Shown: piece by piece, positions 27,494 to 58,766 of the stretch
Numbering within the stretch: the first letter of the stretch is position 1
How the letters are laid out: every line of letters starts with the position of its first letter
DNA from: a virus
DNA length: 64,000 nt
Reading direction: 5' to 3' (one strand)
Virus record (IMG/VR): IMGVR_UViG_3300021091_005099
Coordinates: 1-64,000 of that record
Program-made: the position numbers and the translations under genes
Notes under the pieces: model-generated
What the model was told of the DNA's origin: nothing
Databases searched by the model: none
The model's input: the letters and a program-made list of their open reading frames with translations, nothing else

Positions 27494-27499
27494 TCTGCT

Positions 27500-31669: not shown

Positions 31670-33283
31670 ATGTCTTACACCATAAACAAGACCGACGGGA
31701 CCAAACTAGTTGTGCTGAAGGATGGCACAGTCAATATCACAAGCACCGATATCGCATTGTTTGGCAGAGGCTATGCGGGTTTTGGTGAAAGGCTTAATGA
31801 AAACTTTGTAAAGGTATTAGAAAATTTTGCCAACACGACACCACCTCCGAGAAAAATCAAAGGACAGCTCTGGTATGACGCACTGACCAATCAAATCAAA
31901 GTTTGGAACGGAAAAACATTCAAACCCGTGGGCAGCAGCACAGTGGGTGCGACCAGACCCACCAACATCAATGCTGGAGACATGTGGTTCGACACAGGCA
32001 ATGGTCAGTTGTATGTGTATTCGGGAACGGGATGGCAGCTGATCGGACCAACCACAGTGTCGGGAACTGGAGTCACCCAGGTGGTCCCAGACAGTGTGCG
32101 TGACAACGTGGGAGTTTTTAAATCTTTTTTAAAATTATTAGTTGACGATCAAATCGTAGCCATAGTTGCTAGGGAACAGTTCACTCCACTGACCGCAATC
32201 ACGGGATTCACCACAATCCAAAAAGGCATAACCATGAACTCCACCAGCATAGCGGGAGCCAAATTCGTTGGAACCGCAACCAATTCAGAACTGTTTGGTG
32301 GATTATCAGTCAATGATTTTTTAAAATCCAGCGAAGCAGAAACCACGAACTATCAATTTACCGTAGCTTCTGATGACGGCTTGCTGGTAGGAAATAGCTC
32401 AGATGCATTGTTGGGAATCACAGGCGGCAACAACGTGCTTTTAAAAAATAACACTGTTGGTGGAAACATATTATTCAAAGTGAATAAGAGCGGTGATGAT
32501 GTCACTGCGATGTCCATAAGCGGATTGACTGGCCATGTCAGCGTGCCTAACCTCACAGTGGCTGGCACACTGACAGTCACAGGAACTCAGGTGATCTTGG
32601 AGACACAGACACTGTCCATAGAAGACAATATAATAGAATTGAACAGAAATATTTCCACTGCTGCTGCCATGCCAAATTATTCTGGATTGAAAGTAAAAAG
32701 GAGTGATGTTGCAGGTGGCACTAATGAGAATTTATATTGGGTTTGGGATGAAACTTTTGCAGATGACGGCACTACACTTCACGGTAATGCCGGTGGAGCA
32801 TGGACCGCTTTCAGAGATCAAGGTGAGATTGCCTCTCCCATTTTGGTGGACATCAGGGCCAATGTGGTTCATGCGACTTCTACTGCAGCCCAGTATGCTG
32901 ATATAGCAGAGCGTTATGCCACAGACGTGCCGCTGGAATCAGGTGATGTGGTGATATTGGGCGGGTCAAAAGAGATAACAAAATGCAATCAGGAATTGGA
33001 TCACAGAGTTTTTGGGGTAGTGTCTGAAAATCCAGCGTTTTTAATGAACAAGGATGCTGGTAATAACGACAGCCATCCCATGATTGCCCTCAAAGGTAGG
33101 GCCAGGGTGAAGGTTATTGGAAGCGGTATGGCAGGAGATCGCATCGTGTCCAGTCATATTCCTGGTGTTGCCAGGGTGGCTGTGCTTAATGAATGCACTG
33201 CATTTAACGTGCTGGGTAGGCTGCTCAGTGATAAATATAATGCGCTATTAAGTTTAACAGAATGTGTAATAGGAGTCAAATAG
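31670..33283 (+). CDS. Tail fibre-like protein, paralogue 3 of 3, with cleavage-domain-like C-terminus
   Basis: A 537-aa protein. Residues 1-150 are the shared fibre module (MSYTINKTDGTKLVV, GRGYAGFGERLNENF, KGQLWYD, GDMWFD). The central part has LTVAGTLTVTGTQVILETQT and IEDNIIELNRN, like shaft ends of many phage fibres. The last 140 residues start YADIAERYATDVPLESGDVV and contain FGVVSENPAFLMN. This resembles the autoproteolytic appendage domain called peptidase G2 and related fibre C-termini. If active it would be released after trimer formation. Two bases separate it from the next gene. Confidence 0.72.
   Translation: MSYTINKTDGTKLVVLKDGTVNITSTDIALFGRGYAGFGERLNENFVKVLENFANTTPPPRKIKGQLWYDALTNQIKVWNGKTFKPVGSSTVGATRPTNINAGDMWFDTGNGQLYVYSGTGWQLIGPTTVSGTGVTQVVPDSVRDNVGVFKSFLKLLVDDQIVAIVAREQFTPLTAITGFTTIQKGITMNSTSIAGAKFVGTATNSELFGGLSVNDFLKSSEAETTNYQFTVASDDGLLVGNSSDALLGITGGNNVLLKNNTVGGNILFKVNKSGDDVTAMSISGLTGHVSVPNLTVAGTLTVTGTQVILETQTLSIEDNIIELNRNISTAAAMPNYSGLKVKRSDVAGGTNENLYWVWDETFADDGTTLHGNAGGAWTAFRDQGEIASPILVDIRANVVHATSTAAQYADIAERYATDVPLESGDVVILGGSKEITKCNQELDHRVFGVVSENPAFLMNKDAGNNDSHPMIALKGRARVKVIGSGMAGDRIVSSHIPGVARVAVLNECTAFNVLGRLLSDKYNALLSLTECVIGVK
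33230..33237 (+). promoter_or_regulatory. Possible late promoter motif inside fibre paralogue 3
   Basis: GATAAATA fits NATAAATA and lies 47 bases before the ATG at 33285, inside the end of the preceding coding region. With a 7-base core in AT-rich DNA it may be chance. Confidence 0.3.
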
Positions 33284-33284
33284 T

Positions 33285-34253
33285 ATGAGTTATGTGGCCG
33301 GTGATAAGATACTAGATCAAGAGTATAATAATTTTTTAAACAGTTCAGGTGCAGTTAAAGGAATCAACTACACATTTGGCACAGGAGCCCTTCAACATGG
33401 ATTGGGGCAGACAGAATTGAGTTCAGTAACGGTAGGAGACACTATCACAGCCTCCCAATGGAACTCATTGTTTTCAGCCATGGACAACGTGGCCAATCAT
33501 GCCAATGACACTTTGACATCAACAGAGGCTAAATCAGCAGGAGATGTTATCGCTGTCAAAGCAGCTCTAGAGGCCGACCTAACGACACTGGCAGCATCAG
33601 TGGCGAATGGATGTCCCAATGCCACAGCACTGAGCACGTCAGCAGCTCTGCAAACTTCAGCATCCGGCACCAGATATATAGGATCACACGTAGTGGAACA
33701 TTCTATCACATTCACCAATGCCAATCAGGCACGTTTTTTCTTCAACGCAGGCGGCAAGATACAGATCAACATCACTAGAACCGGCAATGGCGGATCATCA
33801 GCTACATCCAAAGACGACTCAGTGGACCAATTGATCTCAGCACTGGGAGATTTCCGATTGAAATCACAGAATTCCTCAAGATCAGGCACAGGAGAGACAC
33901 TCACTGAGGATGGAACCAACGTTGGTTTCTACGAACTGACAACATCATATCAGACCATTATAGAATTAACACAAGATTCAGGCACATACACCACCATGTT
34001 TTTCAAAGTGGAAGCCAAAGCCGATGCAGCAGCAGGTTCCGCCTCTGTGGTGACCATCAGGACTTCTATAGTGGATCCAGATTCAGGTGATAGCGAATTC
34101 ACCGCTGGTAACACATCAGGTGTGGATCAATATGCCAACTTCATTGGCACAACCAACGTGGTACTGAAGACTGTGAATCCAACCACAGCAGAAGGTCTTG
34201 CCACGGTGTACACGCCAGACTCCACTGCAGTAGTATCAAATACCACGACATAA
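33285..34253 (+). CDS. Virion structural protein, unknown
   Basis: A 322-aa beta-type protein, poor in charged residues and rich in Thr/Ser/Ala/Gly. The N-terminus (SYVAGDKILDQEYNNFL, then VTVGDTITASQWNSLFSAMD) is a pattern I know from tail or fibre proteins of marine myophages with no assigned role. The middle, FTNANQARFFFNAGGKIQINIT, suggests a jelly-roll or Ig-like sheet. It is the last long structural gene of the plus-strand block. No enzymatic residues are evident. Confidence 0.65.
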   Translation: MSYVAGDKILDQEYNNFLNSSGAVKGINYTFGTGALQHGLGQTELSSVTVGDTITASQWNSLFSAMDNVANHANDTLTSTEAKSAGDVIAVKAALEADLTTLAASVANGCPNATALSTSAALQTSASGTRYIGSHVVEHSITFTNANQARFFFNAGGKIQINITRTGNGGSSATSKDDSVDQLISALGDFRLKSQNSSRSGTGETLTEDGTNVGFYELTTSYQTIIELTQDSGTYTTMFFKVEAKADAAAGSASVVTIRTSIVDPDSGDSEFTAGNTSGVDQYANFIGTTNVVLKTVNPTTAEGLATVYTPDSTAVVSNTTT

Positions 34254-34303: not shown

Positions 34304-34618
34304 ATGGATATTAAATCTTTGCGTGACCGATCTGACCTCAGCTTTGATATCGCTGTTGCCAAGAAGAATGCACTGGAACGAGCAAAATCTCGTCAGATCG
34401 TAGCATACAACAATCATCTTTTTCATGCTGACGCCGACACCATTAATATTGTCAGTGTATTAAAACAACAGCACGACAGATTTTTCATACTGGATACCAA
34501 TGATAATCCTTGCGAGATCACTGATCCACAAGGATTCTTAGATGTCTTGATACAGCGCAATCAAGAAGCACTCAATGAATATCATCAGTTGCACCAGCGA
34601 TTGAAGAAAAAAATATAA
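34304..34618 (+). CDS. DUF4376-like small protein, putative fibre-assembly factor
   Basis: A 104-aa protein with the layout of DUF4376 proteins, which accompany phage tail fibre genes: an N-terminal Arg/Lys/Ala helix (KKNALERAKSRQIV), a short sheet (HLFHADADTINIV), and a C-terminal helix after a DPQGFLDVLIQRNQEAL segment. No ribosome binding site is visible and the promoter six bases upstream predicts a leaderless mRNA. It ends two bases before a glycosyltransferase gene, linking the fibre block with the modification operon. Confidence 0.55.
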   Translation: MDIKSLRDRSDLSFDIAVAKKNALERAKSRQIVAYNNHLFHADADTINIVSVLKQQHDRFFILDTNDNPCEITDPQGFLDVLIQRNQEALNEYHQLHQRLKKKI

Positions 34619-34620
34619 AA

Positions 34621-35379
34621 ATGTCAGTGGGAGCATTAATCTACTGTTTCGATTCGGATCAATTGCAATATCATCGCGTTGCTAATTTTTGCATACGTCA
34701 GGTCAAAAGAAATCTAGGGCTGCCTGTCACAGTGGTGACCAATGAGGCCACGAGAAAAAACATACAGGAAGCAGATCGATTAGTACTTGTGGAAAATGCC
34801 CGAGGCAATAAGCGTTATTACAAGAACAGACCCATCCCATGGTACAATCTAGAGAGGGCCATGGCCTATGATCATTCTCCGTATGATACCACCATACTTT
34901 TGGACGCTGATTATTTTGTCTATACCGGCAACTTATTATCATTCACTAACAGCAAATATGATTTTGTGTTGCATGATCGTGTGCATGATCTCACCAACAG
35001 GGGGAGTTTCCTCTATGAGACAAAGAGCATGATACCCTTGGTATGGGCCACAGTGACTATCTTCAAGAAAACTTCCTTCTCCAGGAAAATTTTTGATCTG
35101 ATACAGCACATACAGCAGCATTATGATTATTTCTGTAACCTGTACAGGATAGAGTTTCGTAATTTTAGGAATGATTACGCCTTTGCAATGGCGTTGCATC
35201 AGCTGAACGGATTCACAAAACAGTATTTCATACCATCCGCCATGGCCATGTTGCCCATGGACACGCAAATTTTAAAGATAGACGAGACGGGATTGATATT
35301 CAAACACGACAAATATATGAATTTGATCTCGGATCAGGATGTGCATGTGCTTAACAAGGAGATACCTTTCAATGTCTAA
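34621..35379 (+). CDS. Glycosyltransferase-like protein, GT-A
   Basis: A 252-aa protein with a GT-A core: a beta strand at the N-terminus (SVGALIYCFDSDQLQYHR), KRNLGLPVTVVTN, and a DxD motif at D95-A-D97 in TTILLDADYFVY. The later part (NDYAFAMALHQLNG and FKHDKYM) fits the acceptor side and a metal-ligand His seen in GT8-like enzymes. The sugar is unknown. First enzyme gene of the operon, starting two bases after the DUF4376-like gene and overlapping the next gene by eight bases. Confidence 0.7.
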   Translation: MSVGALIYCFDSDQLQYHRVANFCIRQVKRNLGLPVTVVTNEATRKNIQEADRLVLVENARGNKRYYKNRPIPWYNLERAMAYDHSPYDTTILLDADYFVYTGNLLSFTNSKYDFVLHDRVHDLTNRGSFLYETKSMIPLVWATVTIFKKTSFSRKIFDLIQHIQQHYDYFCNLYRIEFRNFRNDYAFAMALHQLNGFTKQYFIPSAMAMLPMDTQILKIDETGLIFKHDKYMNLISDQDVHVLNKEIPFNV

Positions 35380-36178
35380 GGGTTTTCTCTGGTTCGCCCA
35401 GAACAATGACAGCACAGATTATGCCAAACTGAGTGTCGCCCTGGCAAGATCAATCAAGAAAAATTGCAAGATTAATAATGTTTGCGTGATTGTGGACGAG
35501 CATACAAAGATACAGAGCGAATATGTGGACTCGGTGATTGTTTTGAAACAGGATCACAGCCAAGATCAATCATTGAAATTTGCCAACGAACACAAAGCAT
35601 TCAAACTATCACCATTCACCCATACCATAAAATTAGAAGCAGACATGCTGTTCACGCACAATGTCGACTGGTGGTGGAATCATCTGTGTCAGCATGACCT
35701 TGTGTTTGCCGTGAACTGTAGGAACTATCAAGACCAGATAATTAAAAAAACTCCTTATAGGAAATTGTTCCATCAAAATAATCTACCAGATGTTTACAAC
35801 GGACTGACCTATTTTAGGCGCAGTGAAAGAGCCATGCAATTTTTTAAATTGTGCAAAGCCATTACTGATAATTGGACGCAGGTTCAGAATGGGCTATTAA
35901 TAAATTGCCATGAGCAATATCCCTCAACGGACATTGTGTATTCCCTCGCCTACAGGATCATGGATCCTCTCCAAATGCACTTGATAGATTATCCGTGGTT
36001 TAAATTCATACATGGCAAGCCTGAAATAAATGGTGTGGCGAATGCTGTAGATCAATACAATTATCTCAATCCAGTTTTCATGGATGACAGAATGTATGTG
36101 GGAGGACGTAGGTTCGACCGCATTTGGCATTACCATGATAAAAAAATGATAGATATTTTTCATGACAGAATTTTTTAA
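35372..36178 (+). CDS. Glycosyltransferase-like protein, GT-A
   Basis: A 268-aa protein from the ATG at 35372, which overlaps the previous stop by eight bases; an upstream ATG at 35339 lies deeper in that gene and is less likely. It starts MSKGFLWFAQNNDSTDYAKL, a form common in phage glycosyltransferases that act on tail or surface glycans. In place of DxD it has E89-A-D91 (IKLEADMLFT), so metal binding may be altered. It contains a conserved-looking YNGLTYFRRSERA segment near residue 150. Likely paralogous in fold to the neighbouring enzyme. Confidence 0.65.
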   Translation: MSKGFLWFAQNNDSTDYAKLSVALARSIKKNCKINNVCVIVDEHTKIQSEYVDSVIVLKQDHSQDQSLKFANEHKAFKLSPFTHTIKLEADMLFTHNVDWWWNHLCQHDLVFAVNCRNYQDQIIKKTPYRKLFHQNNLPDVYNGLTYFRRSERAMQFFKLCKAITDNWTQVQNGLLINCHEQYPSTDIVYSLAYRIMDPLQMHLIDYPWFKFIHGKPEINGVANAVDQYNYLNPVFMDDRMYVGGRRFDRIWHYHDKKMIDIFHDRIF

Positions 36179-36500
36179 AGCATTAGATAGTTTCAAATCT
36201 GCACCGCCCGATAATAATTTCTATATGGAAGTTATCGAAACAGAGATAGTGTGTCTGCGTAGAGAAGCCAACAACAACACTGTGAAAATTACGCAGGAGC
36301 AATATAAGTTTCTGTTAGAGAATGGCATCAATAATTTTATCTATGATGGTTCTATAGGAAAGAAACATAAAAAAAGAACTCACAGAATATTTTCCTTGCT
36401 GCGTAAAGACGAAAGAGGGTATAATCTTGAACGTAATGATCCCTATTGGCCTATCGAGGTAGTGGAAGGAGGTTACACATGGCGTACACCGTCAGAATAA
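36162..36500 (+). CDS. Hypothetical protein, 112 aa
   Basis: A charged, mixed helix/sheet protein with no recognised family. Notable stretches are YMEVIETEIVCLRREANN and a basic GSIGKKHKKRTHR near residue 70. It overlaps the previous gene by 17 bases and the next by 22, with the next gene's Shine-Dalgarno sequence inside it, so it belongs to the operon. It could be a small carrier or substrate-binding subunit for the enzymes around it; nothing in the sequence proves this. Confidence 0.55.
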   Translation: MTEFFKALDSFKSAPPDNNFYMEVIETEIVCLRREANNNTVKITQEQYKFLLENGINNFIYDGSIGKKHKKRTHRIFSLLRKDERGYNLERNDPYWPIEVVEGGYTWRTPSE

Positions 36501-37375
36501 GTGACCTTGACTTTGTTTTCATCAGCTATCGCGAGCCCAACGCCGACGAGAACTACGCTGACCTGTTGAACATAGTGCCCTGGGCCAAGCGGGTGCATGG
36601 CGTTAAAGGATTTGACAACGCACACAAGGCCGCAGCCGAATGTGCAGAAACAGATTTTTTCATCAGCATAGATGGTGACAACAGGATAGATTCTACCTTT
36701 CTGTTGCAGACATTGGACTGGAGCAAGACCAATCCCGCTGCCGTGCATCGCTGGAGGGCGAGAAACATAATCAACGGACTAGTGTATGGCAATGGTGGAC
36801 TGGTCGGATGGCCAAAGAAGACATGCCTAGGCATGAAAACACATGAGAATGCAGTGGATGAGCGATCCAAGATAGATTTCTGCTGGACCGTGCCACACGA
36901 GAACCTGCACAATGTTTATTCAACAACACACATCAATCACACACCAGAACAGGCCTTCATAGCAGGATACAGGGAAGGGGTAAAAATGAGCCTAGATCGA
37001 GGACAGAAAGTTAATCCCAACGGCTTCATGGAGACAATAGAAACTGTAAATTTGAAAACTTTATTGATATGGATGAGCATCGGACAAGATGTGGACAATG
37101 GCAAGTGGGCGATGCTGGGTGCTAGATGTGGTTGCTACATGGCCACATTGGATACCAACTATGACATCACGTTGGTAAGAGATTTAGAATTTATGAGCGA
37201 CAAGTTTTCTCGCATGATGTATGATATAGAATCTGATATGGCGTCATACGGAAACTCTTTGAGACAGCGCTTGGGGCTGCCTTTGGCGGACCTCGATGCG
37301 GCAGAGAGCAAATTCTATAAGTTCTGCCAACAACCACACAGGAACAAGGGAGTGCAAGATCGTGAAAGCAAGTGA
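36479..37375 (+). CDS. Glycosyltransferase-like protein, GT2/GT-A type
   Basis: A 298-aa protein starting at 36479 after a strong AGGAGG (36467-36472, six bases away). It begins with a beta strand (DLDFVFISYREPNAD), continues with WAKRVHGVKGFDNAHKAAAE, and has the DxD-like D65-G-D67 in FFISIDGDNRID. A NGGLVGWPKK segment follows. The pattern of switch-loop and DGD resembles one half of the longer protein at 48514. It probably binds a nucleotide sugar. The following gene overlaps its end by 14 bases. Confidence 0.65.
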   Translation: MAYTVRISDLDFVFISYREPNADENYADLLNIVPWAKRVHGVKGFDNAHKAAAECAETDFFISIDGDNRIDSTFLLQTLDWSKTNPAAVHRWRARNIINGLVYGNGGLVGWPKKTCLGMKTHENAVDERSKIDFCWTVPHENLHNVYSTTHINHTPEQAFIAGYREGVKMSLDRGQKVNPNGFMETIETVNLKTLLIWMSIGQDVDNGKWAMLGARCGCYMATLDTNYDITLVRDLEFMSDKFSRMMYDIESDMASYGNSLRQRLGLPLADLDAAESKFYKFCQQPHRNKGVQDRESK

Positions 37376-38741
37376 TTACAAACACAATGCTGATAAGGCA
37401 CAGAAGAAACTAGATAAAATTAGCCCAAGTTTCTGTCTAGCCAAATGGAATCAGGTGTCACTGCACCTGCCCACGGGACTGACCAATTCCTGCTACCATC
37501 CACCACTCCACGAAATAGATAGAGCAGCGTTGGCTCACAATCCTTCTGCTCTGCACAACACCGCACAGAAGATCTCAGAGAGACGAAAGATGATGGAGGG
37601 GCAAAGGCCCGAAGGATGTTCCTATTGCTGGAATATTGAAGACACCGGGGAGATGAGTGATCGTCATTATCGTAGTGGAGAACCCTGGGCCATGCAGGAT
37701 TTCGAAAAGATAACACAGAACCCCTTCAACCCTGCGCACACACCTTCATATGTGGAAGTCAACTTCAACAATGCCTGCAACTTTAAATGCAGCTATTGTT
37801 CCCCTCAGTTCAGCACCACGTGGGGCAAAGAGATAGATATCTATGGAGAATATCCAACCGAGCCCGCACACAACGCACCCGAACACTTCATGGGGCGCAG
37901 GAAACCAATACCCAACAGAGAAAATAATCCCTACGTGGAGGCGTTCTGGCGCTGGTGGCCGGAACTATACAAGAATTTAAAACATTTCCGCATGACCGGT
38001 GGTGAACCCATGATGGACAGCAACACATATCGGGTGTTTGATTACATTATCAATCATCCCAAACCCGATCTACATCTCAATGTGACATCCAACATGTGTC
38101 CACCCAGAGACAAATTAAAGGATCAATACTTTGACGCTGTCAAGAGGATGTGCCTGGATGGGAGCATCGAGCACTTCATGCAGTTTGTGTCCGTGGATGC
38201 TCATGGATCTCGTGCCAACTACATACGACACGGCATGAATTACAATCAATTGATGGACAATGTGGATGAATTCCTCACACGCATACCTGGCCGTAACAGC
38301 GTGAGTTTCATTATAACTTACAACAATCTCAGTGTGACGTCCCTGGACAAATTGCTAATAAATATTCGTCAATTGAGGCAGAAACATTCCACAACCTATC
38401 AAAGGATATGGTTTGACATACCTTTGCTGCGCCAGCCGGCGTGGCAGCAGATCACTTTGCTTCCGCAAAGTTATCAGCGGATACATGAGCAAAACATTGA
38501 ATATATGAGACAGCATCAAGAGAACACAGAACAGGACAACAAAGATTTTGCTGTGTTCAAGGACTTTGAGATACAAAAGATGCTGCGCAATCTCGCTTAC
38601 TGGCGCAAGCACGCTGAAATAGACAAAGCGCAGAAAAAGAATTTTTACGCATTCTTCTCGGAGCATGATCGTCGACGAGGCACAAGTTTTGAAAACACGT
38701 TTCCTGAGATGAAGGAATTTTGGCAGGAGTGTAAAAGTTAA
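37362..38741 (+). CDS. Twitch-type radical SAM protein 1 of 5
   Basis: A radical SAM enzyme (459 aa from the GTG at 37362, which has AAGGGAG nine bases upstream; an in-frame ATG at 37296 is possible but overlaps the previous gene by 80 bases). The N-terminal twitch-like part has SPSFCLAKW near residue 21, SCYHPPLH in place of the usual Cys pair, and GCSYCWNIED. The SAM cluster ligands are C139-x3-C143-x2-C146 (ACNFKCSYC), followed by FRMTGGEPMM. The domain order matches the N-terminal-twitch radical SAM family often seen in marine phages. The substrate is unknown. Closest in layout to the next protein. Confidence 0.75.
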   Translation: MKASDYKHNADKAQKKLDKISPSFCLAKWNQVSLHLPTGLTNSCYHPPLHEIDRAALAHNPSALHNTAQKISERRKMMEGQRPEGCSYCWNIEDTGEMSDRHYRSGEPWAMQDFEKITQNPFNPAHTPSYVEVNFNNACNFKCSYCSPQFSTTWGKEIDIYGEYPTEPAHNAPEHFMGRRKPIPNRENNPYVEAFWRWWPELYKNLKHFRMTGGEPMMDSNTYRVFDYIINHPKPDLHLNVTSNMCPPRDKLKDQYFDAVKRMCLDGSIEHFMQFVSVDAHGSRANYIRHGMNYNQLMDNVDEFLTRIPGRNSVSFIITYNNLSVTSLDKLLINIRQLRQKHSTTYQRIWFDIPLLRQPAWQQITLLPQSYQRIHEQNIEYMRQHQENTEQDNKDFAVFKDFEIQKMLRNLAYWRKHAEIDKAQKKNFYAFFSEHDRRRGTSFENTFPEMKEFWQECKS

Positions 38742-38749
38742 GGGATATC

Positions 38750-40105
38750 ATGAACGAGAACGCAGATCTGGAATATCGTAAACAAATACTGGACTTATTG
38801 AGTCCTAGTTTCTGTGGAGCCAAATGGTACAACGCCACCATATGGTTGGGATCCGGCATGACTACCAGTTGCCATCATCCACCTGCACATCAAGTGGATG
38901 TGGAGAAATTACGACACAATCCAAGATTGTTGCACAACACTCCTCAGAAGAAACAAGATCGCGCTAAAATGATTGCCGGCGAGAGGCCCGCGGGCTGCGA
39001 ATACTGCTGGAAGATAGAAGACATGGGCAGAGATGCCGTGAGCGATAGAGTTTACAAAAGCAAAATTTATCCAACGGCAGATCTGGAACGGGCATTCAGC
39101 ACTCCCATCACAGAGGACGTTAATCTTAAAACACTGGAGATTGCTTTCGACAGGACCTGTAATTTCGCCTGTTCCTATTGCAATCCTGCTTTCAGCACCA
39201 CGTGGGTGAGAGATATAAAACAACATGGTCCTTATAAAAATTTGATATCAGATGGTAGGAATCATTTCACTCATCCTCATGATGGTGCGCAATTGTACAA
39301 AGACACAGAGGAAAATCCCTACGTTGAAGCTTTCTTTAGATGGTGGGAAACAGATCTGCACAAGACCTTGGACGAGCTGAGGATCACAGGTGGAGAGCCC
39401 ATGATGAGTCCTTCCTTGTGGAGATTGTTGGATTGGTTTGAAACTCAGGGAGAACGTATCAATCCTAAAATGCGATTGGCCATTAACTCTAACCTAGTGC
39501 CCAAGGCAGAATTGTTTGCAAAGTTCATAGATAAATGTCGGAAAATAAAAAATCTACACATCTATACGTCCAATGAATCCACGTATGCCCATTCGGATTA
39601 TATCAGAGACGGCATGGACTATTCTGGCTGGTATGGCAATTTTGCCAATATCATCAATCAGATCAGACCGGCCGGCCTTCACAACATGTGCACCATTAAT
39701 GCACTGTGTCTTGAATCACTTCCCGAATTCCTAGATGTGATAGTAAGAAATAAATTAGATGCCAAGAGGGTGTATGGGGTCAATGTAAATTTCACCTTGA
39801 ACATACTGAGATTTCCTAGTTTCCAATCTCCATTGGTGTTGCCGGACTATCTACGTTCAGAGTTTCGAGATAACCTATCCCGATGGTTGGATATCAATAT
39901 AAAACATTGCGAGTTAATGGAGGTGTCCCACGTGCAGAGATTGATAGATTATCTAGACGTGGTCAAAACGCCTCATTCAGATGCATTCGATTTGCCAAGA
40001 CTAAGGTCTGACTTCAAAAATTTCTATAAACAATATGATGAGCGAAGAGGCAAAGATTTTGCGAAAACATTCGCAAGGATAGGAGAGTGGTACCGTGGCC
40101 TATGA
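38750..40105 (+). CDS. Twitch-type radical SAM protein 2 of 5
   Basis: A 451-aa close paralogue of the preceding protein: SPSFCGAKW at residues 18-26, SCHHPPAH, GCEYCWKIED, cluster ligands C137-x3-C141-x2-C144 (TCNFACSYC), then LRITGGEPMM. Both 1 and 2 share a C-terminal FYKQYDERRG-like/FSEHDRRRG end, suggesting a gene duplication. Reductive cleavage of SAM is expected; the target may be a sugar or a peptide. It begins eight bases after gene 1 and ends 11 bases inside gene 3. Confidence 0.78.
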   Translation: MNENADLEYRKQILDLLSPSFCGAKWYNATIWLGSGMTTSCHHPPAHQVDVEKLRHNPRLLHNTPQKKQDRAKMIAGERPAGCEYCWKIEDMGRDAVSDRVYKSKIYPTADLERAFSTPITEDVNLKTLEIAFDRTCNFACSYCNPAFSTTWVRDIKQHGPYKNLISDGRNHFTHPHDGAQLYKDTEENPYVEAFFRWWETDLHKTLDELRITGGEPMMSPSLWRLLDWFETQGERINPKMRLAINSNLVPKAELFAKFIDKCRKIKNLHIYTSNESTYAHSDYIRDGMDYSGWYGNFANIINQIRPAGLHNMCTINALCLESLPEFLDVIVRNKLDAKRVYGVNVNFTLNILRFPSFQSPLVLPDYLRSEFRDNLSRWLDINIKHCELMEVSHVQRLIDYLDVVKTPHSDAFDLPRLRSDFKNFYKQYDERRGKDFAKTFARIGEWYRGL

Positions 40106-41387
40106 GTACGGGGCTAAAGAGCCCGAGAAACTGAAGATAAAAAACATGACTACTCGTCAAAAAGAGTTGTTGTTGGATAGCGACACATTCTGTATGCTGC
40201 CATGGATGCATCTGCACGCCTATCCGGATGGTCGAGCATACCCTTGCTGTTTTGCATTTGATGCCTATCATGTGGGAGATTTGAACAAGCAATCTCTTGC
40301 TGAAGTTTTCAATGGTGATAGGATGAAACAGATGCGCTTGAACATGTTGGATAACAAGCCCTGCAAAGAGTGTGGCAAGTGTTATGATCAAGAGAAGGCA
40401 GGGTTTTTCAGCCTGAGATTGAGCTCCAACAAACATTTTGGACACAACGTGGGGTTAGTGGACACAACAAAATCTGATGGCAGTGCAGATTTTGTGATCA
40501 AATACTGGGACATACGATTCAGCAATCTCTGCAACTTCGCCTGTCGCAGTTGTGGAACATGGTTCAGCTCCAACTGGTATGAAGATCATAAAAAACTTAC
40601 AGGTTCGCCTCCTCCACATGCAAAAATTTTGAAAGTAGGCAGAACAGCAGATGACTTGTGGGAACAGATGTTGTCCCAATTCGATCATGTTGAACAGTTC
40701 TATTTCGCAGGTGGTGAACCTTTGATCATGGAAGAACATTATAGAATACTTAAAGAATTAGATAGAAGAAAGATGTACCATGTGAGACTTGTGTACAATA
40801 CCAACTTCAGCAAACTGAAATTCAAAGATATGGACGTGTTAGAGCTTTGGAACAAATTTGACACAGTGTCGGTAGGAGCCAGCCTGGACGCCGAGGGAGA
40901 AAGGGCAGAATTGATGAGAAAAGGCACAGTGTGGAAAGACATAGTGCAAAATAGAAAAAGGATGTTGGAGATATGTCCCAAAGTGGATTTCTACATCAGT
41001 GCTACAGTGGGATTAATAAATGCTCTACATGTTGTTGATTTTCATAGATCATGGATAGATCAAGGACTGATTAGGCCCATGGATTTTAATTTCAACTTGT
41101 TGCAATGGCCCAAGTGGCAGAGGATGGACAATCTACCAAAAGAATATAAGGAACAGGTGGACAAAAAATACAAGCAACACATAGAATGGCTCAAAGGCAA
41201 GGACCCTCTAACCAGAGCGACCAAGGGTTATCAGAGTGCCCTCAATTGGATGTGGATGAAAGATAACACAAAAAATTTACCGTTGTTCTTTGAACAGACA
41301 AGGAAATATGACACTATTAGACAGGAAAATATAGTAGAGGTGTTTAGTGAGTTAAAAGAATTATTTGACGTACATGAAAAGACTTAA
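40095..41387 (+). CDS. Twitch-type radical SAM protein 3 of 5
   Basis: A 430-aa radical SAM enzyme. Here the twitch part is of the standard form: TFCMLPWMHLHAYPDGRAYP then C51-C52, and KPCKECGKCYDQE near residue 90, for an auxiliary iron-sulfur cluster. SAM cluster ligands are C146-x3-C150-x2-C153 (LCNFACRSC), then FAGGEPLIM. The GTG at 40095 is preferred because AGGAG lies at 40081-40085; an ATG at 40146 is the alternative. Overlaps its neighbours by 11 and 14 bases. Confidence 0.78.
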   Translation: MAYEYGAKEPEKLKIKNMTTRQKELLLDSDTFCMLPWMHLHAYPDGRAYPCCFAFDAYHVGDLNKQSLAEVFNGDRMKQMRLNMLDNKPCKECGKCYDQEKAGFFSLRLSSNKHFGHNVGLVDTTKSDGSADFVIKYWDIRFSNLCNFACRSCGTWFSSNWYEDHKKLTGSPPPHAKILKVGRTADDLWEQMLSQFDHVEQFYFAGGEPLIMEEHYRILKELDRRKMYHVRLVYNTNFSKLKFKDMDVLELWNKFDTVSVGASLDAEGERAELMRKGTVWKDIVQNRKRMLEICPKVDFYISATVGLINALHVVDFHRSWIDQGLIRPMDFNFNLLQWPKWQRMDNLPKEYKEQVDKKYKQHIEWLKGKDPLTRATKGYQSALNWMWMKDNTKNLPLFFEQTRKYDTIRQENIVEVFSELKELFDVHEKT

Positions 41388-42678
41388 ACCAAACCAAGGC
41401 AATAAAACTTTTTGCATGGCTCCCTGGACCCACACCTATCTATCGCCGCAGACAGAGCGTAGGATCTGTTGCGCCTCGAGGGAGAATGCACAGAGTTTTC
41501 GTCAATACATCGACAGGCATGGAGACTTGAAGGATTATCAGCCTCAAACTTTGGACCAACATTGGAACAACGAGCACATGAAAAGTGTAAGGACTAGAAT
41601 GATGTCCGGTGAGACATTGGCAGAATGTCAGGTGTGCAACGACAAATTACTCAATACCGACGTGTATCGTGACTATTTCAATCATCTGTTCCGCAACAAG
41701 ATTGACGATGCTTTTGAAAAGACCGACGACACCGGATACACTGAGATGAAGACTGTGAGTTTTGATTATAGATTTAATAATCTTTGTAATTTCAAATGCC
41801 GGCAATGCGGTGATATGTTAAGTTCAAGCTGGGAATCAGAACAAAGAAGCCATGATATGTGGTCCCCGGAGAGGCAGCCCTGGATGGCAGCGCCACTGAG
41901 ACAACAGATCTCATATTTTCAAGACAGCACCGTGGTGTTAGAGTTCATGAATGCAATAGAGGACAAGCGCATGGAGGAGATATATTGGGTTGGTGGAGAG
42001 CCCTTGATGTGGGACATACACTGGACAGCAATGGACAGAATCATTCAATTAAAATTCAGCGACAGGGTATACGTAAGATACAACACTAACCTAAGTCGCA
42101 CACAATTCAAGGGCAAAAAACTTTTCGATCTTCTTGGACATTTCAGAGATTGGCAGGTCTGTGCGTCACTAGATGGCACAGGAGAAATAGGAGAATACAT
42201 AAGGACCGGACTTGACTATGAAAAATTTCTAGCAAATTTCAAGGAGGGACTATCAGTTGCCCGAAATAAAAGACAGATGCAGTTAGACTTCACGATAACC
42301 ATGCCCGGAATGCAGGAGATACGTAGCATGTTTGACCTATCGCAGCAATTGAACGCTAAACTATTGACCAAGGTTACCTTTGCTTTTGACTCACAGCAGA
42401 TTATGTCTCCCATGTGTCTGCCAAAGCCGCTTTTGCATCAACTGATCGATGAAAATTTAGATTACATTAAACCAAGAGCGACTGCTATGCAAAAGAGCTT
42501 AGTAGATGTGCTAGAAAACATGAAGACACGTCCAACTTTCTGGGAGGAGTACCCAAAAGCAGAAATAGGTATCCGCTCAGGAAAAAAAAGATGTGAAAAA
42601 ATTGACACGATACGTGGAACAGATATAAAAAAAATATTGATAGACGAAAGATTATTAGAATGGTGGAAAAATATCTAA
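41374..42678 (+). CDS. Twitch-type radical SAM protein 4 of 5
   Basis: A 434-aa enzyme from the ATG at 41374 (an in-frame TTG at 41365 is less likely). N-terminal twitch part: KTFCMAPWTHTYLSP, C32-C33, ECQVCNDK. SAM cluster: C138-x3-C142-x2-C145 (LCNFKCRQC), followed by WVGGEPLMW. The C-terminal third (AIDASGSI-like motifs absent) is helical and charged, ending DERLLEWWKN. Overlaps gene 3 by 14 and gene 5 by 19 bases. Function is the same open question as for its paralogues: presumably one step of a radical-based modification. Confidence 0.78.
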   Translation: MKRLKPNQGNKTFCMAPWTHTYLSPQTERRICCASRENAQSFRQYIDRHGDLKDYQPQTLDQHWNNEHMKSVRTRMMSGETLAECQVCNDKLLNTDVYRDYFNHLFRNKIDDAFEKTDDTGYTEMKTVSFDYRFNNLCNFKCRQCGDMLSSSWESEQRSHDMWSPERQPWMAAPLRQQISYFQDSTVVLEFMNAIEDKRMEEIYWVGGEPLMWDIHWTAMDRIIQLKFSDRVYVRYNTNLSRTQFKGKKLFDLLGHFRDWQVCASLDGTGEIGEYIRTGLDYEKFLANFKEGLSVARNKRQMQLDFTITMPGMQEIRSMFDLSQQLNAKLLTKVTFAFDSQQIMSPMCLPKPLLHQLIDENLDYIKPRATAMQKSLVDVLENMKTRPTFWEEYPKAEIGIRSGKKRCEKIDTIRGTDIKKILIDERLLEWWKNI

Positions 42679-43829
42679 AATCTAACTTATGTGTGCTGCC
42701 GTGGACTTCCTTGGAAGTTGACGTGAATGGCTCTGCGTCACCTTGTTGCCTATACAAAGGAGAAATAGGTGATTTCAAAGTTTACAAAGACGATCTACAT
42801 AAAATACAAAATTCAAAATACATGAATGAGTTGAGAGATCAATTCCGCAATGGCGAACGTCCCGCAGGTTGTACCAGTTGTTGGCAGGAAGAGGATGCGG
42901 GCAAAATATCAAAGAGAATGAACAGCTATTATAAAATGAAAAATAGTTTGAATGGGTGGACCCCAGAATCAAAACCATCTCTTAAATTTATTGATTTCAA
43001 ATTGGGCAATATATGCAATCTCAAATGCCGCATATGTGGCAGTTACAGCAGTTCCAAATGGGCCCAGGAAGAATTAGATTATGGCGCGAATCCCGTCGCC
43101 AAACAAAACCTAGATTCTGGCCAATGGCCCAAACGTAATCCTGCCTTTTTCGAAGACATCAAACCCGTGTTGAAAGATGTGGAGTACTTTGAATTCACGG
43201 GCGGTGAACCCATGATGATAGAAAATCATTTCAAGATATTGGAGCATTGCATTGAAAATGAATATTCAAAAAAGCAATATCTACATTACAACACCAATGG
43301 CACCAAGTGTCCACCATTGAAAGTGTTTTGGATGTGGAGCCAATTTAAGAACGTTGAGATAGCATTCAGTATCGACGATACCGAGGCAGCTTTCGAATAC
43401 CAGAGACATCCAGCAAGCTGGCAAGAGGTGCAAGACAATTTAAAGGAGTACAAAAACTTTGTGGGCAGCAACAACATTGATTTTCAAATATGCTCGACTA
43501 TAAACATTTTCAACATTCTAAGTTTAGATAGATTATTATATTGGGTGAAAGAATTCAATCCAAAATATTTTCATGTGAATACGCTGTTTGCTCCGGACTG
43601 CTTTAACATTCAAACATTGCCCAAGCAGCTCAAAAAAGTTGTGACAGAAAAATACCAACATCTACCTCCCTACAGGTCCATAATCAATTTTATGAACATG
43701 TCGGACAGGCATTCTCATGAAATGGACGCGGAAAGGAAAAGAAGGATAAGACGGACAGATGAGTATAGGCAAGAAAAATTTTCTGAAATATTTCCAGCGT
43801 TAAATAATTTTTTAAGGATATATGAATAA
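42660..43829 (+). CDS. Twitch-type radical SAM protein 5 of 5
   Basis: A 389-aa enzyme, the shortest of the five. Residues 10-30 read NLCVLPWTSLEVDVNGSASP with C29-C30, the textbook N-terminal twitch signature, then GCTSCWQEED. SAM cluster ligands: C119-x3-C123-x2-C126 (ICNLKCRIC), followed by EFTGGEPMM. It ends where the SGNH-like gene begins (eight-base overlap). That five members differ well outside the motifs argues for five separate substrates or steps rather than simple gene dosage. Confidence 0.78.
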   Translation: MVEKYLKSNLCVLPWTSLEVDVNGSASPCCLYKGEIGDFKVYKDDLHKIQNSKYMNELRDQFRNGERPAGCTSCWQEEDAGKISKRMNSYYKMKNSLNGWTPESKPSLKFIDFKLGNICNLKCRICGSYSSSKWAQEELDYGANPVAKQNLDSGQWPKRNPAFFEDIKPVLKDVEYFEFTGGEPMMIENHFKILEHCIENEYSKKQYLHYNTNGTKCPPLKVFWMWSQFKNVEIAFSIDDTEAAFEYQRHPASWQEVQDNLKEYKNFVGSNNIDFQICSTINIFNILSLDRLLYWVKEFNPKYFHVNTLFAPDCFNIQTLPKQLKKVVTEKYQHLPPYRSIINFMNMSDRHSHEMDAERKRRIRRTDEYRQEKFSEIFPALNNFLRIYE

Positions 43830-44613
43830 AATTTTACTGGCAGGTGGATGCAGTTTCACTTTTGGTAACGAATTGAGCGATGATAATGGAAAAAATCCAT
43901 CCGCAAAATCCTGGTCGGCTCTACTGGCCAAAGAAACAAATGCCAAATATATTTGCGTGGCGAAGCCAGGAATAGGCAACTCTGCAATAGCAAGGAGGAT
44001 CTTTTCCTATGTTTCATCCAATCCCACCAAGGACGTCTTTGTTACCGCCATGTGGAGTTTCTTATCACGCTATGATTGGGCCATGCCAAGACACCATGTT
44101 CTTGAAGGGACTAGATGGGCCTCAATCACGCCATGGGACACTTCCGACAATCAGGCAGAAGTACAAAAAACATTGTGCACCAGTGAGCCCCAATTGGAGG
44201 AATGGAAAAGGCGCAGGGAGGACATGAAGAGCACAGGAGTTGGGCCGTTCGCTGATGCCCTTTATCGTCACGCCGCGAACCAATATCACGAAGCATATCT
44301 CAGCTGGAAGAGCATCGTGTGGCTGCAGAATATCTTGGAAAAGAAAGATGTGCCCTACATGTTCACTTTGGCTGATAACAGTTTATTTTGGCAAGGGTTT
44401 GAGCCATTGCATGCAGTTGATTCTTTGCTGAATGGTCTATATAATGAAATAAATTTTGATAAATGGATTTTTTTTGGAGATAGGCAAATGGGATTCAATC
44501 AATGGTCAATAATGAAAGAATATCCTCGGGCCACCACGCATCCGCTTGATTTGGCACACGCTGATGCAGTGGCACTTATACGCAATAAATTTTTAAAATT
44601 GTATCAACAATAG
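43822..44613 (+). CDS. SGNH/GDSL-like hydrolase
   Basis: A 263-aa protein. The N-terminal GGCSFTFGNEL contains the nucleophile-like serine S11 in the place of the GDS motif, a variant frequent in phage SGNH proteins. Near the C-terminus HPLDLAHADAVALI gives the expected Asp/His pair of the catalytic block. The Gly and Asn oxyanion positions may be PGIGNSAI near residue 50. Such enzymes add or remove acyl groups on carbohydrates. It follows radical SAM 5 and could O-acylate or deacylate the glycan made by this operon (inference). Confidence 0.65.
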   Translation: MNKILLAGGCSFTFGNELSDDNGKNPSAKSWSALLAKETNAKYICVAKPGIGNSAIARRIFSYVSSNPTKDVFVTAMWSFLSRYDWAMPRHHVLEGTRWASITPWDTSDNQAEVQKTLCTSEPQLEEWKRRREDMKSTGVGPFADALYRHAANQYHEAYLSWKSIVWLQNILEKKDVPYMFTLADNSLFWQGFEPLHAVDSLLNGLYNEINFDKWIFFGDRQMGFNQWSIMKEYPRATTHPLDLAHADAVALIRNKFLKLYQQ

Positions 44614-44727: not shown

Positions 44728-46194
44728 ATGAGAACTCTGGGAATAAATTGCCTGAATCATGACGCAGCCATGGCTGTAATCGATGGAGGCGAGATATTAT
44801 GGGCCGCGCACTCGGAAAGATATAGCAAAATAAAAAATGATGAATATCTTAACTGGGATATAGTGAACGAGGCCAAGTTGTTTGGGCCATGGGATCGCGT
44901 GGTTTATTACGAAAAACCCATATTGAAAAAAACGAGGCAGATTTACGCGGGGCAATGGGCCGAAGTCTTCAATCGAGCCAACATGCCACAAAGTTACCTG
45001 CAAAATTTTAACATCAAAATAGATCAATATTGCGGGCATCACGAATCTCATGCGGCGGGAGGCTTCTATACGTCACCTTTTAATGAGGCAATGGTGCTTA
45101 CGGTTGACGCCATAGGAGAATGGGAAACCACCACGATATGGCAGGCAAGTGACAAAAAATTAGAGAAGTGTTACAGCATGAAGTATCCACATTCGTTGGG
45201 AGTGCTTTATTCTGCATTTACCCAGCGTGTTGGATTGAAACCCGCAGAAGAAGAATATATTTTGATGGGAATGTCTGCGTATGGACAACCAAAATATGTT
45301 TCTAACATTTACAAAGATCTGTTGCAATGGGACGGAGATTTTATCTTAAAAAAAAATTTGCATAGAGGACTTGGCGATTGGCTGCCGGAAGCGGATTCGA
45401 TGGACTTGGCGGCAAGCATACAGCAAGTTATGGAGCTGGAATTAGAGAAACTATGGAGAAAGGCACGCAAGCACATATCTGTTGGGCATGCAAGGAATTT
45501 GGTTTATGGTGGTGGCGTGGCACTGAATTGTGTGGCGAACACCAAGTTGGCGGATTTGGATCTATTCGATAACATATGGATCATGCCCAATCCCGGAGAT
45601 GCCGGCAGCTCCATAGGCTGCATCGCGGCCGCTGAACGTAAACACATCAATTGGCGTCATCCTTTCCTTGGGCACCGCATAGAGGGCGAATATCCTGTAG
45701 ATAGCATTATAAAGGAATTGGAAACCAATCGCATGGTGGGTGTGGCCAACGGCCGGGCAGAGTTTGGTCCAAGGGCGCTTGGTAATAGATCTTTGCTGGC
45801 CGATCCCAGAGGCAACGACATAAAGGATTTGGTAAATCAAATCAAAAAAAGACAGGAATTTCGACCATTTGCGCCGGCCATATTGGAGGAGGATCTAAGA
45901 GACTATTTTGAGGTTCCTAAGTGCGTTGTAAACACCCCTTATATGCAATTTATAGGCATTTGCAAGCATGGTAAAGACTTTCCTGCCATAATACATCATG
46001 ACGGCACCAGCCGTGTGCAAACAGTGAATAAAACAGACAATCCGGGCTTTTACCAACTGTTAAAAACATGGAAGGAAAAGACCGGCTGTCCCATGCTGCT
46101 GAACACATCTCTCAACATCAAAGGTGAGCCCATTGTGAATGATAGTTTGGATGCAAAACGTTTCGAAACCAAGTATAATGTGAAAGTGCTATGA
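44728..46194 (+). CDS. Carbamoyltransferase, NodU/TobZ family
   Basis: A 488-aa enzyme that should transfer a carbamoyl group from carbamoyl phosphate, via carbamoyl-AMP, to a hydroxyl of a sugar or nucleoside. Visible motifs: NHDAAMAV at residues 10-17, CGHHESHAAGGFYTSPF at 102-118 (metal/nucleotide histidines), GGGVALNCVAN, NPGDAGSSIG, GPRALGNRSLLADPR around 348-362, FRPFAPA, and LNTSLNIKGEPIV near the C-terminus. It is somewhat shorter than NodU or TobZ (about 560-570 aa). Its ATGA stop/start overlap with the cupin gene shows translational coupling. Confidence 0.88.
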   Translation: MRTLGINCLNHDAAMAVIDGGEILWAAHSERYSKIKNDEYLNWDIVNEAKLFGPWDRVVYYEKPILKKTRQIYAGQWAEVFNRANMPQSYLQNFNIKIDQYCGHHESHAAGGFYTSPFNEAMVLTVDAIGEWETTTIWQASDKKLEKCYSMKYPHSLGVLYSAFTQRVGLKPAEEEYILMGMSAYGQPKYVSNIYKDLLQWDGDFILKKNLHRGLGDWLPEADSMDLAASIQQVMELELEKLWRKARKHISVGHARNLVYGGGVALNCVANTKLADLDLFDNIWIMPNPGDAGSSIGCIAAAERKHINWRHPFLGHRIEGEYPVDSIIKELETNRMVGVANGRAEFGPRALGNRSLLADPRGNDIKDLVNQIKKRQEFRPFAPAILEEDLRDYFEVPKCVVNTPYMQFIGICKHGKDFPAIIHHDGTSRVQTVNKTDNPGFYQLLKTWKEKTGCPMLLNTSLNIKGEPIVNDSLDAKRFETKYNVKVL

Positions 46195-46523
46195 AAATAG
46201 AAGGTAATTTTGAAGTTGGCGGAACCATTGTCAAGCAGGATGATCGCTATGTGGTCAAGGACAATAACCTGTTGAAGAATTTGATCTTGAGCAGCACCAG
46301 GCTCAATCCAGGCAAGCAGACCACTGGTCATAGACATGCCGGGCAGGAGGAGGTGTACTTGTTCGTGGAAGGCAATGGTGAAATGCTGTTGGATGATAGG
46401 CGCTTTCCAGTGAGCAAGGGAGATATAGTGTTGATAGAAGACGGAGTTTTCCATAGAGTTTACAACACCACTGAATCGGAGCTCTATTTCGTTTGCGTGT
46501 TTGATGGCAGGAGGACGATATGA
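46191..46523 (+). CDS. Cupin-fold protein
   Basis: A 110-aa single-domain cupin. The first cupin motif reads GHRHAGQEEVYLFVEGNGEM with H47, H49 and E54 as metal ligands; the second has GDIVLIEDGVFHRV with the fourth His. This is close to small cupins of nucleotide-sugar pathways (sugar isomerases or epimerases), but the same fold serves many reactions. It shares ATGA with both neighbours, so it is probably made with the carbamoyltransferase and the epimerase at similar levels. Confidence 0.75.
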   Translation: MKIEGNFEVGGTIVKQDDRYVVKDNNLLKNLILSSTRLNPGKQTTGHRHAGQEEVYLFVEGNGEMLLDDRRFPVSKGDIVLIEDGVFHRVYNTTESELYFVCVFDGRRTI

Positions 46524-47488
46524 AAATATTTGTTACTGGAGGAGAAGGTTTTATAGGCAGCTGGATTGTGGAAAAATTAAGCAACAATGGACATGAGGTA
46601 GGCACTATGGACAATCTTGATACCTATGGAGTGATAAGCGAGAATAAACTTGATCAATTGTGTAGATGGAGGAGACGCAACTGGAAAAAGGTAACGAGAT
46701 TTTTCGGCAATGTTAATAGTCCAGAATCCTATTATCTTTTGACTCCAAAGAATGCACTCAAGGCGATGCAGGAATCGGAGGTTGTGATACACCTGGCATC
46801 TTTTCCCAGGGCCAAAATAGTCAACGAAGATCCGCAGCAAGGTGTCAATAATATTGTGGGCGGTACAACTAACATGCTGAATCTGTGTAAGTGCACCAAA
46901 GTTAAAAGATTTGTTTTTGTGTCCTCCAGCATGATCTATGGAAATTTCAAAGATGGCACTAAAGAGGACATGCCTGCCAGCCCAATTAATGTTTATGGGC
47001 AAGCAAAACTTGCTGCAGAAAAAATGACTGAATTATTTGGCAGGGTACATGGACTGGAATACGTCATCGTGCGGCCCAGTGGAGTGTATGGGCCAGGAGA
47101 TATTCCAGATAGAGTCTTGAGCAAGTTTTTTGACGCCGCCATGCGAGGTAAAGATATTGTGGTCCATGATAAGCGCAACAAAGTTGACTTCACATATGTG
47201 GAGGACGCGGCCGATGGCATCATCAGTTGTGCCCTTGGTAAACAAGCCGCGAATAAAATATTCAATATCACTGCCGGCGGTGCGACCAGTTTGGGAGAAG
47301 CGGCAGAGAAGATTATTAAATTGACCGGCAGCAGCAGCAAAATAAAAGACACAGGCCAGAATAGTCTGTATCCTGAAAGAGGCACACTTGATATATCTTC
47401 GGCCGTGAAATTACTGAAATACAAACCCAAACACAGTTTTGAACAGGGAATAAAAAAATATTATGAATGGTTACAAGATAAAATTTAA
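46520..47488 (+). CDS. NAD-dependent nucleotide-sugar epimerase/dehydratase
   Basis: A 322-aa extended short-chain dehydrogenase. TGGEGFIGS at residues 6-14 is the NAD-binding loop, SSSMIYG near 135-141 gives the catalytic Ser, and Y159-x3-K163 (VYGQAK) is the active pair. IVRPSGVYGPGD and the terminal EQGIKKYYEWL are typical of UDP-sugar epimerases. It likely interconverts or dehydrates a nucleotide sugar for the glycan. It overlaps the aminotransferase gene by 26 bases. Confidence 0.85.
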   Translation: MKIFVTGGEGFIGSWIVEKLSNNGHEVGTMDNLDTYGVISENKLDQLCRWRRRNWKKVTRFFGNVNSPESYYLLTPKNALKAMQESEVVIHLASFPRAKIVNEDPQQGVNNIVGGTTNMLNLCKCTKVKRFVFVSSSMIYGNFKDGTKEDMPASPINVYGQAKLAAEKMTELFGRVHGLEYVIVRPSGVYGPGDIPDRVLSKFFDAAMRGKDIVVHDKRNKVDFTYVEDAADGIISCALGKQAANKIFNITAGGATSLGEAAEKIIKLTGSSSKIKDTGQNSLYPERGTLDISSAVKLLKYKPKHSFEQGIKKYYEWLQDKI

Positions 47489-51031: not shown

Positions 51032-51301
51032 TTAAATCACAGCATTCTGAGCCATGCCGCTGAGTATGAATAGTGTGAGGTCGCTGTGTTCCTCGAAGCC
51101 CACGGTGGTCAATATCTGCACTTGGTCATTTTGGTATTTGACATCATTTACCATGGCAAACCTGCCTGCGCAATTGGCATAGATCCAGCGCGCAGTCTTG
51201 TGCATCTGGTGATCTGTTTGACTTGGTAAAGATATCGATTTGAAATGTGGTGGTATCCGATCTAGTTTTCTTGTGTGGAAATTTTTGGCATTAATCCTCA
51301 T
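51032..51301 (-). CDS. Hypothetical protein, 89 aa
   Basis: A small protein with no recognised family. It has a basic N-terminus (MRINAKNFHTRKLDRIPPHF), a central HKTARWIYANCAGRFAMVND and an apparent C-terminal sheet and hydrophobic helix (LTLFILSGMAQNAVI). Its start overlaps the end of the VWA-protein gene by 11 bases, so it is the third gene of the MoxR/VWA operon. Possibly a cofactor of that pair. Confidence 0.6.
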   Translation of the reverse strand: MRINAKNFHTRKLDRIPPHFKSISLPSQTDHQMHKTARWIYANCAGRFAMVNDVKYQNDQVQILTTVGFEEHSDLTLFILSGMAQNAVI

Positions 51302-58755: not shown

Positions 58756-58766
58756 GTTTCTCCTTT

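Follow-up and report, generated by a model that had tools for sequence, protein, structure and literature searches.

Why a virus should carry five different radical S-adenosylmethionine (SAM) genes side by side, and what their products might modify together, is the question raised by a locus on the 64,000-nucleotide stretch of viral DNA analysed here (the window; positions 1 to 64,000 of IMG/VR record IMGVR_UViG_3300021091_005099). The window is part of a virus record of 113,993 bp that is classed as linear and is possibly a fragment. The nearest DNA-polymerase relatives of this record were found to be the large phages Phosso and Atu_ph07, not pelagiphages. The genes in question, here named RS1 to RS5, are five consecutive open reading frames (ORFs) on the plus strand at positions 37362-43829 that overlap or nearly touch, and the evidence supports their products being different twitch-type radical SAM enzymes, five in all, which work together as one unit.

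Family assignment and predicted fold of RS1-RS5

Each of the five proteins was found to match NCBIfam family NF033640 ('twitch domain-containing radical SAM', N_Twi_rSAM; curated cut-off 170 bits), with scores of 287-410 bits over nearly the whole model (positions 1/2-391/398). RS1 (37362-38741, +; 320 bits) begins with a GTG at 37362, with an in-frame ATG at 37296, and carries an SCYHPP motif; RS2 (38750-40105, +; 287 bits) is of SCHHPP type and RS3 (40095-41387, +; 410 bits) of PCC type. These are followed by RS4 (41374-42678, +; 308 bits), which begins with an ATG at 41374, with a TTG at 41365, and RS5 (42660-43829, +; 352 bits). In every protein an N-terminal C...C...CX2C arrangement was followed by CX3CX2C (CNFKCSYC, CNFACSYC, CNFACRSC, CNFKCRQC and CNLKCRIC in RS1 to RS5, respectively) and then by GGEP. 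The proposal of a first-pass annotation that these are five tandem twitch-type radical SAM genes was thereby borne out, both by the motifs and by the hidden Markov model search of each protein. Pairwise identity to RS1 was 33% for RS2 and 19-20% for RS3-RS5. Relatives of RS2 were found to be encoded in at least 599 viral stretches.

Two of the proteins were modelled using AlphaFold and both folded well, with a predicted local distance difference test (pLDDT) score of 88.7 for RS3 and 84.1 for RS1. The confident PDB matches of these models were radical SAM structures only, namely CteB, BlsE, anSME, viperin and SuiB for RS3, and SkfB and viperin followed by DesII for RS1. TM-scores were mostly below 0.5 with 15-21% identity, and RS1 and RS3 therefore have no close relative among solved structures.

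Cysteines of the SAM and auxiliary clusters

Conservation of cysteines was scored in 92-95 orthologues per RS group. The four twitch cysteines (C...Gx4C...CX2C) are present in all five proteins, with Thr in place of the Gly of Gx4C in RS4. Those of RS1 (C25, C44, C86 and C89), together with the three of CX3CX2C, were kept in 95/95 RS1 sequences, and the equivalent seven cysteines were 99-100% conserved in each of the RS2-RS5 groups. Along with the good folds of RS1 and RS3, this goes against the objection weighed in the earlier annotation, that twitch region or SAM cluster residues might not be modelled in most of the five. We propose that each enzyme would work with a [4Fe-4S] cluster that cleaves SAM and a single auxiliary cluster. 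RS1-RS5 possess only four auxiliary cysteines, compared to the seven of a full, C-terminal SPASM domain with two auxiliary clusters, and the matches to PF13186 in RS3, RS4 and RS5 were found to lie N-terminal to the barrel.

The SPASM/twitch consensus is CX9-15GX4C...CX2C, in which the Cys after Gx4 serves as ligand. At this site RS1 and RS2 carry SCYHPP and SCHHPP where RS3-RS5 carry a CC pair, which the first-pass annotation had taken as a sign of a likely change in the auxiliary cluster. The substitution is real, but the retained Cys occupies the Gx4C ligand position, and RS1 and RS2 are without the second, non-canonical Cys of the pair only. An altered set of auxiliary ligands in these two proteins was rejected because the seven iron-sulfur (Fe-S) cysteines hardly vary in any of the groups. 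Cysteines conserved outside the clusters were identified in RS1 (C264, 96%; C457, 99%), RS2 (C320, 99%), RS4 (C263, 92%) and RS5 (C278, 99%); speculatively, these may serve in radical quenching or in catalysis.

Conservation of the cassette as a unit

Each of RS1-RS5 was used on its own to fetch viral contigs, with RS4 used again as an alignment, and the best 80 matches were taken from each fetch, so that the nearest relatives were sampled. Genes of the fetched loci were called mechanically as ORFs of at least 60 amino acids. Following removal of redundancy at 90% RS3 identity, 94 viral loci with the set remained. The order RS1-RS2-RS3 was fixed in all 94, with RS3 followed by RS5-RS4 in 64 loci and by RS4-RS5 in 27, and with no assignable RS5 in three. 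Co-occurrence, conditioned on one gene and counted in loci with enough flank, showed all five genes in 57/57 loci fetched with RS2, 59/59 fetched with RS3 and 63/69 fetched with RS4. Two of the six exceptions end just past RS4, two are without RS1 in the fetched flank and two have a gap at the position of RS2. Loci fetched with RS1 held all five genes in 30/47 cases only, this looser association being due to more distant phages that carry RS1 without the others. The set is thus conserved in other virus genomes, an outcome that the earlier annotation had named as support for a pathway, and a gene order unique to this genome is ruled out by the 94 loci and by the co-occurrence in the RS2-, RS3- and RS4-fetched sets.

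Comparison of the window genes with those of four relatives gave amino-acid identities of 65-93%, while synonymous differences had reached or approached saturation; the ratio of non-synonymous to synonymous substitution rates (dN/dS) was 0.03-0.05 where computable. The cassette is under strong purifying selection. The five genes of one relative were often unequal in their closeness to the window (in locus L136, 78% for RS1 and 90% for RS3), which suggests recombination inside the cassette with retention of the set.

Origin of the five genes

A tree of 138 N_Twi_rSAM members showed five orthologue clades matching RS1-RS5. The phage cassette members were monophyletic in each (support 0.94-0.995), every clade also took in sequences from contigs whose titles name Bacteriovoracaceae, Bdellovibrionia or related bacteria, and the arrays of Bdellovibrionota were found to be sister to the phage clades. 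Because each clade has chromosomal members from Bdellovibrionota, the divergence of the five paralogues is older than that between phage and bacterial copies. The RS1 and RS2 clades are sisters (support 0.999), in agreement with an earlier suggestion that the first two genes are duplicates. That this duplication was recent, as also suggested, was rejected on the tree, in which both clades already hold Bdellovibrionota members; judged from the tree, the duplication is old and the five genes represent ancient paralogue clades.

Among the Bdellovibrionota loci, L253 has the arrangement RS2-RS4-RS3-like-RS3-RS5-(small ORF)-RS1-RS2, adjoining apparent obgE and rpmA genes, and L296 carries RS2, RS5-like, RS4 and RS2. 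In one genome, 29 kb of a single contig contain 13 family members over the cut-off, and in another there are seven within 10 kb. The 13-member array (loci L294 and L295) is located on contig C1, at approximately 741-779 kb, of a single Bdellovibrionia metagenome-assembled genome (MAG), along with an amidinotransferase-like gene and three 2-oxoglutarate (2OG)-oxygenase or Asp/Asn-hydroxylase-like genes.

A near-identical phage cassette was also identified in MAGs named Verrucomicrobia, Betaproteobacteria, Pelagibacter, Flavobacterium and Rickettsiales (loci L246-L250). Four of these contigs carry virion genes of the island described below, and all five are probably phage contigs that were misbinned. 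Marine MAGs holding near-identical contigs, together with published relatives, suggest that these viruses may be aquatic. Single family members occur on Bacteroidota MAG contigs; in loci L256, L259, L260 and L261 (Flavobacteriales/Vicingaceae) a single RS3-type gene lies a few genes from ORFs reading as hemB, hemL and hemE.

The island around the cassette

Flanking genes were counted in loci with enough flank, 86 upstream of RS1 and 61 downstream of the cassette. Upstream, a virion structural or tail-fibre-like protein, f3 (31670-33283, +), with PHROG tail-fibre and virion-structural matches, was found in 74/86 loci. It is followed by a putative virion protein without a database family, f6 (33285-34253, +; 80/86 loci), and by a small protein, f7 (34304-34618, +; 79/86 loci), whose position suggests a possible tail-fibre accessory. 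Two glycosyltransferase-like ORFs of one family, f1, come next, the first with a DADYF motif (34621-35379, +) and the second with EADML (35339-36178, +), the family being present in 85/86 loci. A small fast-evolving protein, f14 (36162-36500, +), is conserved in position and poorly in sequence, with f10 holding the same position in another clade. The last gene before RS1 encodes a GT2-like, glycosyltransferase-like protein with an invariant DGDN, f2 (36446-37375, +; 85/86 loci), and f1 and f2 were both found upstream of RS1 in 84/86 loci.

Downstream, an SGNH-hydrolase-like protein, f5 (43822-44613, +; 39/61 loci), was read from its sequence as a possible acyl transferase or esterase with a GGCSFTFGNE N-terminus, and gave no match in family-library searches. 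It is followed by a NodU/Nol-type O-carbamoyltransferase, f8 (44728-46194, +; PF02543/PF16861; phrog_1601, E 6e-95), in 58/61 loci, a cupin-domain protein (46191-46523, +; PF07883), an NAD-dependent sugar epimerase/dehydratase, f11 (46520-47488, +; PF01370, E 7e-42; 27/61 loci), and a DegT/DnrJ/EryC1 sugar aminotransferase, f15 (47463-48524, +; PF01041, E 5e-61; 21/61 loci). A second f2 member (48514-49815, +), which clusters with the ORF at 36446-37375, is the last gene of the plus-strand run. In the clade with the order RS5-RS4, a 363-amino-acid protein, f9, often follows RS4, and no family was found for it in the searches.

A variable slot for radical SAM genes

A fetch with an f2 alignment gave a sample of the island that was not selected for radical SAM genes, comprising 51 non-redundant f2 loci. 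The same f3-f6-f7-f1-f1-x-f2 core was found with 0 to 6 radical SAM genes located just after f2. RS1 was present in 32 of the 51 loci, RS2 in 16, RS4 in 13, RS3 in 12 and RS5 in 10. Gene content was close to nested: loci with RS4 also possessed RS2 (13/13), those with RS2 nearly always possessed RS1 (15/16), and those with RS5 possessed RS1, RS2 and RS4 (10/10). This pattern fits the stepwise accretion of a pathway, with the phylogenetically uncorrected counts being inflated by the shared ancestry of the loci. An island with 0, 1, 2 or more radical SAM genes is what would be expected if accessory steps tailored the output of a core pathway.

Ten phage loci (L315-L320, L324-L325 and L331-L332) have the island core and a second f2-type gene with no radical SAM gene, in most cases followed by an opposite-strand block. 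These are natural comparators without radical SAM genes, and the occurrence of phages with 0, 1, 2 and 5 steps in one genetic setting makes both the chemistry and the order of the steps testable.

Possible function of the cassette

The explanation that we favour, while giving it roughly even chances of being right, is that RS1-RS5, as five non-redundant enzymes, carry out accessory, stepwise tailoring within a phage island for glycosylation, the product of which is probably a surface glycan. It builds on five intact enzymes with conserved cluster cysteines that are inherited together, kept by purifying selection and fixed in their association with the island; from these we infer the glycosyltransferase identity of the neighbours, the glycan substrate, the single reactions and the benefit. 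A glycan is preferred because of the sugar enzymes and glycosyltransferase-like families of the island, the accessory nature of the radical SAM slot and the neighbourhoods in Bdellovibrionota, where f2-type proteins adjoin RS3-type radical SAM genes. The pelagimyophage island described below, which occupies this place, also speaks in its favour. The two f1 proteins and f2, along with the epimerase and the DegT aminotransferase, would build a glycan on tail or fibre proteins or on the host surface, and RS1-RS5 would then act on it in successive steps, for example by epimerisation, dehydrogenation or deoxygenation. The SGNH-like protein and the carbamoyltransferase would add caps. The benefit to the phage may be altered binding of the virion, or a receptor blocked against competing phages. 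BlsE and DesII, which are among the structure matches, act on sugar nucleotides.

Several observations weigh against a glycan product. Searches of f1 and f2 with PDB profiles gave nothing significant in support of glycosyltransferases, the one match of f1 being to glycogenin at E ~0.4, and the GT2 Pfam matches seen in several f2 members were below threshold (best E 0.001), as were those to PHROG. No recognised glycosyltransferase was found beside the RS arrays of Bdellovibrionota, which are set among housekeeping genes. No substrate was found for any member of the N_Twi_rSAM family, and the nearest solved structures, although loose matches, are mostly modifiers of peptides or proteins (CteB, anSME and SkfB).

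This last point leads to the main rival, the maturation of virion proteins, which we regard as rather unlikely although the best placed of the alternatives. Here the enzymes would introduce thioether or C-C crosslinks, epimerisations or dehydrogenations into the upstream tail-fibre or baseplate proteins, comparable to the maturases of ribosomally synthesised and post-translationally modified peptides (RiPPs) and to anSMEs. Enzymes with SPASM/twitch domains mostly modify peptides and proteins, SuiB joins the enzymes just named among the top structure matches, and the virion genes f3, f6 and f7 adjoin the cassette in most loci. One Bdellovibrionota array also includes two genes of the Asp/Asn beta-hydroxylase family. 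However, no RiPP precursor with a conserved leader or core was seen among the conserved small ORFs of the island (at least 60 amino acids; f7 and f10/f14 inspected): these proteins are fast-evolving, and the f7 alignment has a conserved P and D without a precursor-peptide pattern. The same virion genes also occur without any radical SAM gene, so that the modification is not needed for them, and the carbamoyltransferase and sugar-nucleotide enzymes are left unexplained.

Biosynthesis of a small molecule, such as a decorated aminosugar-like or nucleoside-like metabolite for use in infection or against competitors, appears improbable. The DegT aminotransferase, epimerase and carbamoyltransferase of the island, along with the f20 proteins of other loci that read as amidinotransferases, are enzyme kinds of aminoglycoside pathways, and BlsE and DesII could be cited in its favour, as could the joining of 13 family members with amidinotransferase-like and 2OG-oxygenase-like genes in the Bdellovibrionota array. 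Yet a constant nearness to tail-fibre genes and glycosyltransferase-like proteins is unexpected for a diffusible product, and no export gene was recognised in the island. That five unrelated enzymes with separate roles came together by chance at a hypervariable site is very unlikely and largely refuted by co-occurrence: RS2, RS3 and RS4 each predict the other four and RS1-RS2-RS3 keep a fixed order. In addition, phage copies form a monophyletic group in each of the five clades. In favour of chance, the content of the slot differs among phages of the wider set and lone family members are known from Bacteroidota.

A more far-reaching role may be put forward as a tentative and on balance doubtful proposal. 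The cassette could be one sequential pathway that takes a single substrate through at least four or five radical SAM steps and was assembled in the order RS1, RS2, RS4 and then RS3/RS5, with an origin common to aquatic phages and Bdellovibrionota, that performs a surface modification of an undescribed kind. Since dozens of distinct aquatic phages retain, under strong selection, five enzymes that are oxygen-sensitive and costly, what these make must be important to infection.

Other radical SAM and neighbouring genes in the record

A sixth N_Twi_rSAM member over the cut-off, at 80795-81817 (-) of the record (17760-18839 of locus L299), is distant from the cassette and belongs to none of the five clades. 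A sub-threshold NF033640 match was located at 27014-27496 (-). The radical SAM gene at 26480-27508 (-) has a sub-threshold C-terminal SPASM-like match and adjoins an ORF with a weak QueC match (25681-26493, -); other members of its family, f28, adjoin f2 and RS3-type genes in Bdellovibrionota as well as in several islands of phages. A further radical SAM gene (56522-57382, -) lies near a Vut_1 transporter of vitamin/queuosine-precursor type (58114-58803, -) and an IMPDH/GMP-reductase homologue (59454-60497, -), and the three perhaps belong to a modified-guanine pathway. A DUF2201 VWA-like protein (51291-53641, -) is paired with a MoxR-type AAA ATPase.

Comparison with known systems

The family itself, phages with many radical SAM genes and radical SAM cassettes in a host recognition cluster are already known. 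RS1-RS5 share with CteB, SkfB and anSME, their best PDB matches, a radical SAM barrel and a SPASM/twitch auxiliary-cluster domain. In these RiPP or sactipeptide maturases the domain is C-terminal, whereas the twitch of RS1-RS5 is N-terminal; the low TM-scores and identities and the lack of a visible precursor peptide in the island also set the two apart. By score RS1-RS5 belong to the same family as other NF033640 members, but here five distinct clades are fixed as a unit. No paper naming NF033640 or giving a function for the family was found among openly licensed PubMed Central (PMC) papers. Likewise, no report was found there of five such genes fixed as a unit, of the clades into which they fall, of the nesting of their content or of a counterpart in Bdellovibrionota.

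In pelagimyophages, an island termed the host recognition cluster carries tail fibres, GT8 glycosyltransferases and radical SAM cassettes (PMC7029224). That study reports 'radical SAM' cassettes being gained and lost, with no subfamilies named and no fixed set. Compared by description and not gene by gene, the present locus may be similar in having a tail-fibre and glycosyltransferase-like island behind a large baseplate protein. This is an ORF of 4,654 amino acids at 6332-20296 that matches large structural/baseplate proteins of T4-like and other large phages, including cyanophages. Tail and virion genes and the baseplate homologue are present here, with the matches of f1 and f2 to glycosyltransferases being weak.

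Five radical SAM genes were thought to be many for a phage by the first-pass annotation. The count stands, but is less exceptional than supposed, as the T4-like marine genome TARA_ERS488813_N000010 has 12 such genes, cited with SPASM/twitch domains (PMC5332604), and radical SAM has also been noted in Campylobacter phages (PMC3322345). Both T4-like marine virus and present record thus hold many radical SAM genes, which PMC5332604 treats as part of Fe-S metabolism together with an A-type carrier. Phage-encoded Fe-S assembly of that kind was rejected here, as genes of the A-type carrier, NifU-N and PaaD-type families were not found in the 114-kb record (possibly a fragment).

The arrays of Bdellovibrionota share relatives of RS1-RS5 with the phage cassette but differ in having another gene order, extra paralogues and no recognised glycosyltransferase or tail genes. 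Given this counterpart, it may be asked which target of modification a lineage of predatory bacteria and these phages have in common. Among named phages, no close relative of RS1 or f2 was found at E 1e-5, and RS3 matched only Vibrio phages K566 and K567, at 21% identity. The cultured phage K566 (locus L245) is similar to the present virus in being a large phage with three family-related radical SAM genes close together. These differ in their ~21% identity to RS3, in falling outside the five clades and in occurring without the RS1-RS5 set; nevertheless, K566 may serve as a tractable laboratory model.

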